In this document: piece after piece, positions 1 through 4,106 of the stretch
How positions within the stretch are numbered: position 1 is the stretch's first letter
Layout of the letters: every line of letters begins with the position of its first letter
Origin: Alphaproteobacteria bacterium MarineAlpha12_Bin1
GTDB lineage: Bacteria > Pseudomonadota > Alphaproteobacteria > UBA6615
Direction: 5' to 3'
DNA length: 64,000 nucleotides
NCBI GenBank assembly: GCA_002937505.1
Contig: PTJY01000003.1
Span: 1 to 64,000 of the forward strand
The notes under the pieces: generated by a model
Seen by the model: only the letters and a program-made list of their open reading frames with translations
Database searches by the model: none
Told to the model about the DNA's origin: nothing
Position numbers and translations under genes: made by a program

Positions 1-1221
1 CTTCTTCCTATTATTTCTTTTTTATCAAACACCGCCTCAGCTAAAGAAGATATTCATGTTCTGACTTCAATAAAACCTGTGCATTCCCTAGTTTCTTTGG
101 TCATGAAAGGAGTAGGCAATCCACAGCTTATTGTCCCTGGTGCTGCCTCACCTCATGGTTTTTCACTCAAACCATCTCAGGCAAAACTTATGGAAAAAGC
201 TGATATCATTTTTTGGATTGGCCCTAATCTAGAGACATTTTTGGAAAAACCATTACAGGTGATTTCTAATAAAGCAACTAAAATTAAGCTTATTGAAACT
301 CCTAAGCTTGAGAAATTAATGTTTCGTGCCGGTGGAAAATTTGAAGAACATGATCATGATCATGGAAAGCACGAAGATGAAAAGCATGATGATCATGGAA
401 AGCACAAAGATGAAAAGCATGATGATCATGGAAAGCACAAAGATGAAAAGCATGATGATCATGGAAAGCACGAAGATGAAAAGCATGATGATCATGGAAA
501 GCACGAAGATGAAAAGCATGATGATCATGGAAAGCACAAAGATGAAAAGCATGATGATCATGGAAAGCACAAAGATGAAAAGCATGATGATCATGGAAAG
601 CACAAAGATGAAAAGCATGATGATCATGGAAAGCACAAAGATGAAAAGCATGATGATCATGGAAAGCACGAAGATGAAAAGCATGATGATCATGGACATG
701 TAGGAAGTGGTTTTGATCCACATATTTGGCTTGATCCAACAAATGCCAAATTGATGTTAGAATACATTTCTCATGAACTGGAAGAAATTGATCCAGCTAA
801 CGCACGCACCTATGAGAAAAATTCTAAGGAAGCAAAACGAAAGATAGATGAAGTATCTTTAACAATTAAAAATGCCCTCACACCCTATAAAGAAAATGGG
901 TTCATCGTCTTTCATGATGCTTATCAATACTTCGAGAAACACTTCGACTTACAGGCATCAGGAGCCATTTCAATTCATCCTGAAACAGTGCCTGGAGCAC
1001 AAAGAATGAACGAAATCAGGCAAGCTCTGAACAACTCTTCTGTAAAATGTGTTTTTACAGAACCACAATTTGAATCTAAAGTTGTGAGAGCAATAATTGA
1101 AGGCACTGGAAAAAAATCAGTTGAAATTGATCCTATTGGTGCAAATTTAAAACCTGAAAAAAATCTCTACTTTAATCTTATTTCAGATATGGGTGAAGCA
1201 TTCGTTAAATGTCTCAGATAA
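1..1221 (+). CDS. znuA: Zinc ABC transporter substrate-binding protein ZnuA (5' end outside window)
   Basis: Periplasmic zinc-capture protein that delivers Zn2+ to a ZnuBC-type ABC importer. The ORF track starts it at GTG 79, but the same frame is open to base 1 and encodes the end of a signal peptide (…SNTASA, then KEDIHVLTSIKPVHSL), so the true start lies upstream of the window. Family zinc ligands are recognisable: PHGFSLKPSQ, DPHIWLDP and FHDAYQYF correspond to the three conserved histidine sites of ZnuA. Between the first and second sites is an unusually long His/Asp/Lys/Glu-rich loop of roughly 120 residues, built from ten 11-residue repeats; such charged loops in ZnuA proteins bind extra metal or act as chaperone segments. 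The znuB/znuC partners are not in the window. Identity is secure; only the N-terminus is missing. Confidence 0.93.
   Translation, partial: LLPIISFLSNTASAKEDIHVLTSIKPVHSLVSLVMKGVGNPQLIVPGAASPHGFSLKPSQAKLMEKADIIFWIGPNLETFLEKPLQVISNKATKIKLIETPKLEKLMFRAGGKFEEHDHDHGKHEDEKHDDHGKHKDEKHDDHGKHKDEKHDDHGKHEDEKHDDHGKHEDEKHDDHGKHKDEKHDDHGKHKDEKHDDHGKHKDEKHDDHGKHKDEKHDDHGKHEDEKHDDHGHVGSGFDPHIWLDPTNAKLMLEYISHELEEIDPANARTYEKNSKEAKRKIDEVSLTIKNALTPYKENGFIVFHDAYQYFEKHFDLQASGAISIHPETVPGAQRMNEIRQALNNSSVKCVFTEPQFESKVVRAIIEGTGKKSVEIDPIGANLKPEKNLYFNLISDMGEAFVKCLR
361..690 (+). repeat. Ten tandem 33-bp units inside znuA (His-rich loop minisatellite)
   Basis: Ten consecutive 33-bp units beginning catggaaagcac and ending catgatgat, with no spacer between them. 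Each encodes HGKH(E/K)DEKHDD. By eye the only variation is one G/A change that switches GAA to AAA, giving the order E K K E E K K K K E. The unit is a multiple of three, so copy number can change without a frameshift. Near-identity at DNA level points to recent expansion by slippage or unequal exchange. Confidence 0.97.
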
Positions 1222-1273: not shown

Positions 1274-2158
1274 TTAGAGAGCTTCACCCGACTGGGCTGA
1301 AAATATCGAACTATAGCCATCTGACCAATCTGGAGGAATTTGACAGGGCCTTGGATCATGTTCAGCCCATTTCACTGAGTTACCCCTAATAAGTTCATAT
1401 GCATGAGCTGAGGGATCTGGGTGCGGCGTATACGGTTTAGCGTCTGCGGAAGTGTAGCAATTTAAAAGAAGCGGCCTAGCAGAGATAGATTTGCTTTTAG
1501 GAGAAAAGTGAAGACATCTGCAATTGTGAATAGTTATAGATCCAGCAGGACCAAATAAATATTCTGTTTTCGACATATCAATCTTTGAGGAATCATTTTC
1601 GTTAAGACACCCCAACCATTGTCCATTTTCTCCATACTGATCATATAGCTGACCTAAATGGCTGTCAGGCATAACAGCAAGAGGTCCATTATCCATGTTT
1701 GTATCTTCTAAATAACAACCAATAGTAAAGACATTATAGTTGGTATGCGGGAAGAACTGCGCGTCTTGGTGCCACTTTACTGAATCACCTCCACCTGACC
1801 ATTTAAAGTTTAACTTCGAATGGTGAAAAACAACATTAGGACCAGCAAGATCAGAGGCTATGTCCGCTAATATACCACTTGCAAGATTCCAATACACTTC
1901 ATGCTTTTCATCTGGCCTTTTCAAACGACGCAACATAGGCCTTTCAGCTTTATGATCTGGGCCCAAATCATAGTCAGCACCAGATACGTTTATACCTTTG
2001 CTAGCTTCTATAAACTGATTTGTAACTTTAAGTAAATCCCTTAACAATCTGTTATCTATAACATTCTTAACTAAAATAAAACCATGAGAAAAATAGTGTT
2101 CACGCTGTTCTTGCGTGAGAATCTTTGCCTTACATCTAAGAATCTCATCGGGTGTCAT
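1274..2158 (-). CDS. Phytanoyl-CoA dioxygenase (PhyH) family protein
   Basis: Predicted non-heme Fe(II)/2-oxoglutarate-dependent oxygenase of the PhyH superfamily, 294 residues, cytoplasmic, no signal peptide. The iron-binding H-x-D is visible in VKWHQDAQFFPH in the middle of the protein, with a distal histidine in the ITIHNCRCLHFS stretch near the C-terminus; a PLAVMPDSH segment between them is typical of the fold. It ends facing znuA (convergent) and lies 43 bp downstream of the quinone reductase gene on the same strand, so the two may be co-transcribed. The substrate cannot be read from sequence: PhyH proteins hydroxylate fatty acyl-CoAs, amino acids and many small metabolites. The ATG start matches the ORF track. 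Confidence 0.85.
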   Translation of the reverse strand: MTPDEILRCKAKILTQEQREHYFSHGFILVKNVIDNRLLRDLLKVTNQFIEASKGINVSGADYDLGPDHKAERPMLRRLKRPDEKHEVYWNLASGILADIASDLAGPNVVFHHSKLNFKWSGGGDSVKWHQDAQFFPHTNYNVFTIGCYLEDTNMDNGPLAVMPDSHLGQLYDQYGENGQWLGCLNENDSSKIDMSKTEYLFGPAGSITIHNCRCLHFSPKSKSISARPLLLNCYTSADAKPYTPHPDPSAHAYELIRGNSVKWAEHDPRPCQIPPDWSDGYSSIFSAQSGEAL

Positions 2159-2201
2159 ATAGAAAGCTCTTTGTAAAAATTAATGTTTATCGAGTTTATT
2201 C

Positions 2202-3176
2202 TTAAAAAGTTAGAATGACCGTGCCATTTGTTTTTCTATTTGAAATATCCTCATGAGCTTTACCAATCTCTTCAAGGTTATACTCATGTGTAATGTTCGC
2301 CTTTATAAAACCTCCAATTATCATCTCATTTACCTCTGTAATCATTCGATTGTTTTCCTCCTGAGTGCTATTGAAATCCTTTAATGAGGCTTTTGTAAAG
2401 ACAAGAGATTTGGAATTTAACTCCATAGCATCTATTGACGGAAGGAATCCTGATGAATGGCCATAATTGATAAACCATCCACGAGGCGCCAAAACCTTTA
2501 AATTGTTTTTGTATGCTGACAGTCCCACAGAATCATAAACAACCGGAACACCTTTATTATTGGTGATATCAAGAACTACATCAGAAAAATTATCTTGGTT
2601 ATAATTGATAACATAGTCACAACCATTTAGTTCTGCAACTTTAACCTTTTCTTTACTACCTACCGTTCCTATTACGATTACCCCTAAGTGCTTCGCCCAC
2701 TGTGTTAGGATACCGCCCATCCCTCCTGCTGCGGCATGTATTAATACTATATCTTCTGGCTTTAGAGGGTAGAGTTGTCGTAAGAGATATTGAGCCGTCA
2801 AACCACGAGTGCCAATTGCAACAGAGACTCTTGCATCTATTTCATTTGGTAATTTTTGTAGATGATGAGTATCGATAACTCTTTTCTCGGAATAACTACC
2901 AAGACTAAATCTATAAGATACTGTTTCACCAACTTTAAAATCATTAACCCCCGGACCAAGTTCCTCTATAATTCCTGCGCCTTCAATCCCCAATACAGCT
3001 GGGAGTTCTGGTTTATAGTAGTAAAGGCCTTCCCTCATTAACGGATCAGCTAAGTGTATAGCAGATGCTTGATGTCTAAGAACAACCTGTCTTGCACCTG
3101 GTTTCTCAAGTGTAACCTCTTCTACAGAAATTACTTCAGGCCCCCCAAATCTTCTAATTATAGCTGCTTTAGACAT
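2202..3176 (-). CDS. Quinone oxidoreductase, zinc-free medium-chain reductase (Qor-like)
   Basis: NADPH-dependent medium-chain dehydrogenase/reductase, 324 residues, close in layout to Qor: an N-terminal GroES-like domain with GIEGAGIIEELGPGV, then a Rossmann domain with IHAAAGGMGGILTQ as the nucleotide-binding loop. The structural-zinc cysteines of classical alcohol dehydrogenases are absent, as expected for quinone reductases. Likely reaction is reduction of quinones or enones with NADPH in the cytoplasm. It is divergent from the PhyH gene beginning near 3306 and upstream of a second PhyH gene on its own strand, suggesting a small oxidative metabolism cluster. Family assignment is firm; substrate is unknown. 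Confidence 0.88.
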   Translation of the reverse strand: MSKAAIIRRFGGPEVISVEEVTLEKPGARQVVLRHQASAIHLADPLMREGLYYYKPELPAVLGIEGAGIIEELGPGVNDFKVGETVSYRFSLGSYSEKRVIDTHHLQKLPNEIDARVSVAIGTRGLTAQYLLRQLYPLKPEDIVLIHAAAGGMGGILTQWAKHLGVIVIGTVGSKEKVKVAELNGCDYVINYNQDNFSDVVLDITNNKGVPVVYDSVGLSAYKNNLKVLAPRGWFINYGHSSGFLPSIDAMELNSKSLVFTKASLKDFNSTQEENNRMITEVNEMIIGGFIKANITHEYNLEEIGKAHEDISNRKTNGTVILTF

Positions 3177-3305
3177 GATGAACTCTTTAATTATTCATAG
3201 TCATCGTATTATAAATATAAATAATTATCCAAAAATATATTTATGATATCCAACATTACGAAAACAGAGTTAATAATATTACATCTATTAATCAAAGGAT
3301 GGGCT

Positions 3306-4106
3306 GTGCTCAAAAAAAATAAATTTCTGACGTCTGAACAAAGCCAACGCTATGAGCTAGATGGATTTGTTTTTCCTATAAAGGTAATGGAGATTGAAGA
3401 AGCAAATAACTATGGTCGAAAGCTTCATAGTTATTGGAAAGACCCTTCTCAATTTATAAAGGGCAATAAACTGCAAAAAATACATCTTTTCACTCTCTGG
3501 ATGTCTGAAATTATAAGGCATAAAAAAATCCTTGATGCTGTTGAAGATGTATTAGGGCCAAACATTCTGTGCTGGACGACAACTCTATTTGTTAAGAAAC
3601 CAAAAGACCCAGGTTTTGTATCTTGGCACCAAGACGGAGAATACTGGGGATTGAACTCTCACAATGTAGTCACTGCTTGGTTAGCTCTCAGTCCAGCAAC
3701 AAGTAAAAATGGCTGTATGAAAATGATGCCAGGCTCACACAAATGGCCAGAAATCAGGCACATTGATACATTCGATGATAATAACCTGCTCTCTCGAGGT
3801 CAGGTCATTGATTGCAATATAGAAGAAGAGAAATCCGTAAAAATACAAATGAAGCCAGGTCAAATTTCTTTGCATCACGTAAATATAGCCCACTGTTCCG
3901 CCCCAAACACCACCAATCAACTAAGAATGGGGATCGCTATCAGATACATATGCCCTACGGTTAAGCAAATTAAGCATAAAAAGGATAGCGCAACATTGGT
4001 CCGCGGTGTAGATACGGAAGGCAATTTTGAACTAGAGCCAACACCTAAATCTAATTATTCACCTTCTGCGCTTAAACTCCATGAACGTGTTACCAATAAA
4101 TCGTAA
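3306..4106 (+). CDS. Second phytanoyl-CoA dioxygenase family protein
   Basis: PhyH-superfamily Fe(II)/2-oxoglutarate oxygenase. Iron ligands are visible in VSWHQDGEYW (H-x-D) and in AHCSAPN (distal His), followed by LRMGIAIRY, where an arginine commonly binds 2-oxoglutarate. The track opens the frame at ATG 3243, but the extra 21 residues (ISNITKTELIILHLL…) do not resemble the family, whereas GTG 3306 follows AAGGA at a good distance and gives MLKKNKFLTSEQ, a normal PhyH N-terminus; I prefer 3306, giving 266 residues. It is not a close copy of the PhyH protein at 1274-2158, so a recent tandem duplication is unlikely. Substrate unknown. Confidence 0.82.
   Translation: MLKKNKFLTSEQSQRYELDGFVFPIKVMEIEEANNYGRKLHSYWKDPSQFIKGNKLQKIHLFTLWMSEIIRHKKILDAVEDVLGPNILCWTTTLFVKKPKDPGFVSWHQDGEYWGLNSHNVVTAWLALSPATSKNGCMKMMPGSHKWPEIRHIDTFDDNNLLSRGQVIDCNIEEEKSVKIQMKPGQISLHHVNIAHCSAPNTTNQLRMGIAIRYICPTVKQIKHKKDSATLVRGVDTEGNFELEPTPKSNYSPSALKLHERVTNKS

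Follow-up and report, generated by a model that had tools for sequence, protein, structure and literature searches.

A ten-unit in-frame minisatellite in the histidine-rich loop of a predicted marine alphaproteobacterial ZnuA

The window, the whole stretch of 64,000 nucleotides analyzed here from Alphaproteobacteria bacterium MarineAlpha12_Bin1, starts at base 1 of contig C6, and its first gene, znuA, is therefore cut at the 5' end (Table 1). Contig C3 has 77 bases in common with C6 and supplies the missing 27 bases (nine codons) of the gene; the break, with its 77-bp overlap (window 1–77; G000:C3:15064–15140), falls in the signal-peptide region of znuA, and the array described below lies ~280 bp further downstream. 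In divergent orientation to znuA, C3 carries an ABC ATPase gene, an ABC-3 permease gene (E = 2.5e-67) and a Fur-like ORF scoring 21.5 bits, slightly below its cut-off of 23.1. Judged by their sequences, these neighbors are the typical set of znuC, znuB and zur, which links the truncated ORF to a predicted zinc importer. The short intergenic region carries a partly conserved GTTATAGTATAAC-type palindrome that is plausibly a putative Zur site. The adjoining ABC ATPase gene znuC (L032:14138–14938, C3) and its congener copies encode a small His-rich tail of their own, YKHKHDHTHDTD; downstream of znuA (window 1274–4106), a gene for a zinc-type alcohol dehydrogenase (quinone oxidoreductase-like) lies between two phytanoyl-CoA-dioxygenase-family genes.

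Table 1. Features of the znuA gene in window coordinates.
Feature	Positions	Strand	Basis
znuA ORF, 5'-truncated by contig end, first 9 codons on contig C3	1–1221	+	5'-open ORF of 406 aa; PF01297; 77-bp contig overlap
His52 codon, predicted counterpart of metal ligand His60 of Citrobacter koseri ZnuA	154–156	+	alignment to 7rcj; invariant in 27 homologues; ligand list PMC8900738
His-rich loop, 126 residues, predicted disordered	337–714	+	composition count; AlphaFold2
Ten in-frame 33-bp units, HGKH(E/K)DEKHDD	361–690	+	exact matches; Tandem Repeats Finder
His241 codon, predicted counterpart of metal ligand His147 of C. koseri ZnuA, just past loop	721–723	+	alignment to 7rcj; 27 homologues; PMC8900738
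His305 codon, predicted counterpart of metal ligand His211 of C. koseri ZnuA	913–915	+	alignment to 7rcj; 27 homologues; PMC8900738

The ORF product matches Pfam family PF01297 across the entire profile (1–263 of 263; E = 9.8e-56; 189.6 bits against a cut-off of 29), and it matches solved ZnuA structures in sequence with E-values down to 1.9e-56. Its AlphaFold2 model (pTM 0.70; most of the core at pLDDT >90) shows the two-lobed fold of ZnuA, with a long linking helix (residues 265–296) and a loop ahead of the second His ligand; Foldseek searches with the model return ZnuA structures with E-values down to 4.5e-21 and TM-scores of 0.87–0.90 by target length, the best matches being 4bbp, 2ps3, 2xqv and 7rcj. 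The NCBIfam ZnuA equivalog NF007091 is the top-scoring NCBIfam model, yet its cut-off is not reached (243.6 bits vs. 268), perhaps owing to the missing first nine residues and the long insert. Sequence and model together identify the ORF as the periplasmic zinc-binding protein ZnuA of a predicted ZnuABC importer. The three predicted His ligands (His52, His241 and His305) are conserved in the alignment to 7rcj and in 27 homologues, and the predicted function is high-affinity zinc binding and transport.

Between His52 and His241, at the known site of the ZnuA His-rich loop, the protein carries a loop that is flanked by an R-A-G-G motif and D-P-H-I-W and consists mostly of the array. It contains 34 His, 32 Asp, 16 Glu, 27 Lys and 13 Gly residues, and residues 118–235 of the AlphaFold2 model have pLDDT values of ~40–46 and no secondary structure. 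The placement of the repeat in the His-rich loop of ZnuA, proposed in an earlier note made from the letters alone, is borne out by the Pfam match, the sequence matches to solved structures and the Foldseek results.

An exact-match scan finds exactly ten in-frame units, CATGGAAAGCAC[G/A]AAGATGAAAAGCATGATGAT, each encoding three His residues; a single G/A site, which switches Glu and Lys in the order E K K E E K K K K E, is the sole difference among them. Tandem Repeats Finder places the array at 356–696 (period 33, 10.3 copies, 98% match, score 654) and reports one other row in the window, with a score of 54. The earlier note was correct as to where the array lies, how many units it has, the sequence of Glu and Lys, and the His content. 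The array is real and is unusual in length and regularity, and its units are as nearly identical as those of a variable-number tandem repeat (VNTR). Across a 479-kb sample of the genome, the runner-up among tandem arrays scores 292; it lies at L192:5058–5224 (G000:C8), comprises 5.6 copies of a 30-bp unit and codes for a Lys/Ala/Pro-rich stretch.

The 33-bp unit was found nowhere else in the 2.34-Mb genome at up to three mismatches. A search of 384 further genomes of the same class, a sample that does not include the congener G002, likewise found no copy at up to two mismatches; a mobile or dispersed repeat is ruled out on these grounds. Two further candidates were set aside: the reverse-strand and other-frame ORFs over the array (146, 135 and 125 aa) are by-products of a periodic open frame, and a weak RDM3_C Pfam match over the array (23.3 bits vs. 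a cut-off of 35) is put down to composition.

Six pairs of contig ends in the genome share exactly 77 bases, which points to a k=77 de Bruijn assembly of short reads as the most probable origin of the sequence; assemblies from short reads are known to give wrong copy numbers for tandem repeats (PMC6868369). An assembly origin of the ten units, or of the three units of G002 described below, would fit the observation that 77-mers of the array recur up to four times and that its longest exact repeat is 131 bp. We nevertheless regard such an artifact as very improbable: the E/K pattern leaves no 150-mer repeated, so that ~150-bp reads could suffice to recover the unit order, with the run of four Lys units as the weak point; every unit keeps the reading frame; the congeners carry arrays at the corresponding position; and there are further ZnuA contigs that terminate within arrays of this kind. 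The count of ten is plausible but not proven, whereas the existence of the array is hardly in doubt.

The ZnuA of G002 is 97% identical to the window protein outside the loop, with 30 substitutions in 903 bases of flanking coding sequence, but its loop has 49 residues and three units; the HxxHxxH motif occurs twice there and nine times in the window loop. Comparison of copy number among relatives, as suggested in the earlier note, thus yields a difference between close relatives of the kind that defines a VNTR (10 vs. 3 units, assembly caveats applying to both counts). All ten window units use AAG and CAT, whereas all G002 units use AAA and the later two use CAC; because of these codon differences, the sequences indicate that the two arrays were separately homogenized and that their units turned over since the lineages split. 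In a second congener, G001, the array has an 11-residue unit of different sequence, HGKHKEHAEEG. Two G001 contigs with 99.55% identity span the locus: one stops within the array after at least four units, and the other, shorter contig has about three units, with ambiguous bases where the units differ. The shorter contig looks like a collapsed consensus, and the pair is for this reason weak evidence of length variation.

Our survey of 101 distinct ZnuA loops from the same class and beyond, which is biased to close matches of the query, indicates that repeat-built loops recur. In-frame tandem arrays with a Tandem Repeats Finder score of at least 100 are present in 21 of the 101, and every period is divisible by 3. 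Examples are the ZnuA proteins of a Rhodobiaceae MAG (L133) and of a same-class genome (L006), whose loops likewise consist of in-frame tandem units, with periods of 84 bp and 39 bp, respectively, but with other unit sequences and lower copy numbers than in the window. Contigs end inside ZnuA arrays at four loci (L008, L011, L063 and L068) and in one G001 contig, and because of this, His-rich tandem loops are probably under-represented or under-counted in metagenome assemblies. Among 83 intact loops, the window loop is the longest (anchor spacing of 189 residues vs. a median of 109; range 77–189). In the open-licence literature, judged mostly by title and abstract (except PMC6821194), no prior description of tandem repeats, VNTRs or intragenic repeats in ZnuA was found; as far as these searches went, the location of the array in a metal-binding loop is unusual.

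The wide spread of loop lengths in related genomes and the replacement of unit sequences between congeners are also what neutral drift would produce, if the array arose by slippage, with no consequence for zinc uptake, in a disordered loop that accepts any length in frame. Deletion of the loop of AdcA alone, which gave no significant growth defect (PMC7858048), points in the same direction. We consider this explanation unlikely, although it is the most serious of the alternatives: repeat-built loops recur with different units across lineages yet keep the same composition of His and acidic residues, which is not expected under drift and, at the level of sequence comparison, speaks for selection acting on composition.

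Length change within species was followed in a limited set of complete plasmids of Leisingera and Phaeobacter. Strains M602 and M597 of Leisingera aquaemixtae have loops whose lengths are 27 bp (three GDH units) apart; 40 of the 41 Phaeobacter inhibens copies are equal in length, the exception being M650, which lacks 51 bp in the loop; and among L. caerulea strains no change in loop length was seen. Within-species length change therefore exists but is uncommon, and these two differences show that irregular loops occasionally change length; a near-perfect array may change length faster than they do.

These observations bear on a further claim of the earlier note, the hypothesized rapid, reversible tuning of zinc scavenging by copy number. 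As a contingency locus, the array would change copy number fast and reversibly within populations and would be selected as a dial of zinc scavenging. Repeats this close to perfect would be expected to be unstable; congeners differ by 10 vs. 3 units despite their few flanking substitutions; and the two near-identical G001 contigs differ by at least one unit, which is suggestive only. Against this stand the collapsed appearance of the shorter G001 contig, the nearly fixed length of the irregular P. inhibens loops, and the step size of 11 residues, which implies graded rather than on/off effects, with a hypothetical benefit. We therefore hold a contingency locus to be distinctly improbable. Equally doubtful is the broader proposal that the ZnuA loop of marine Alphaproteobacteria is a hypervariable minisatellite that gains and loses units within populations, has long alleles that short-read assemblies routinely break or collapse, and sets by unit number how much zinc is held or captured in the periplasm.

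Under our preferred reading, which we judge somewhat better than an even bet, the loop is expanded and disordered, gathers zinc, and evolves in length through in-frame gain and loss of repeats under loose selection. A 33-bp segment would have been duplicated in frame, lengthening a His/Asp/Glu/Lys loop to about ten units; the additional units would provide extra weak, redundant zinc sites and raise local zinc capture beside the high-affinity site; units would be gained and lost via slippage or unequal recombination, a process allowed by the disorder of the loop, which would tolerate any multiple of 3 bp; and selection would act on composition (His and acidic residues), perhaps broadly on length, and not on exact copy number. 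This reading is supported by the ZnuA family and fold, the divergent znuC, znuB and Fur-like genes, the modeled disorder, the lineage-specific arrays of G002 and G001 and the in-frame periods of all 21 higher-scoring arrays. The sub-cut-off NF007091 score counts against it, as could a mis-assembled copy number, either here or in G002; so do the His-poor loops seen in some related ZnuA-like proteins, by comparison with which the units may be dispensable.

Published work on such loops also favors this reading. In C. koseri ZnuA, deletion of the loop leaves one bound zinc ion instead of at least three and eliminates two of three zinc sites (PMC8900738), and the loop of AdcA helps to recruit zinc under zinc restriction (PMC7858048). 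By chemistry and by analogy with these deletions, each unit would add about one weak zinc site, and copy number may tune the number of such sites.

The window ZnuA has the fold, the three His ligands and the position of the disordered His-rich loop in common with the cluster A-I ZnuA proteins of Escherichia coli, Salmonella enterica and C. koseri; it differs in having Pro at the position of their Glu59 and in its loop, which comprises 126 residues in near-perfect tandem, whereas theirs are short (20 residues, 124–143, deleted in C. koseri). Published ZnuA His-rich loops span 12–50 residues, the upper end being the likewise long His-rich loop of Haemophilus influenzae Pzp1/ZnuA (PMC4542158); the window loop is more than twice as long as the latter and is regular at the DNA level. 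The premise of the earlier note that ZnuA loops are usually short and irregular therefore holds for length, as the array loop far exceeds published lengths, but not for regularity, as tandem-built loops are not exceptional in our survey. Bacterial intragenic minisatellites (VNTRs) likewise consist of in-frame units that differ in number between related genomes; they are usually proven by variability within populations, whereas the variation of the window array is known here from comparison between genomes. The natural alleles, with three and ten near-same units in near-identical proteins, constitute a dose series with which zinc gathering by the ZnuA loop can be tested.
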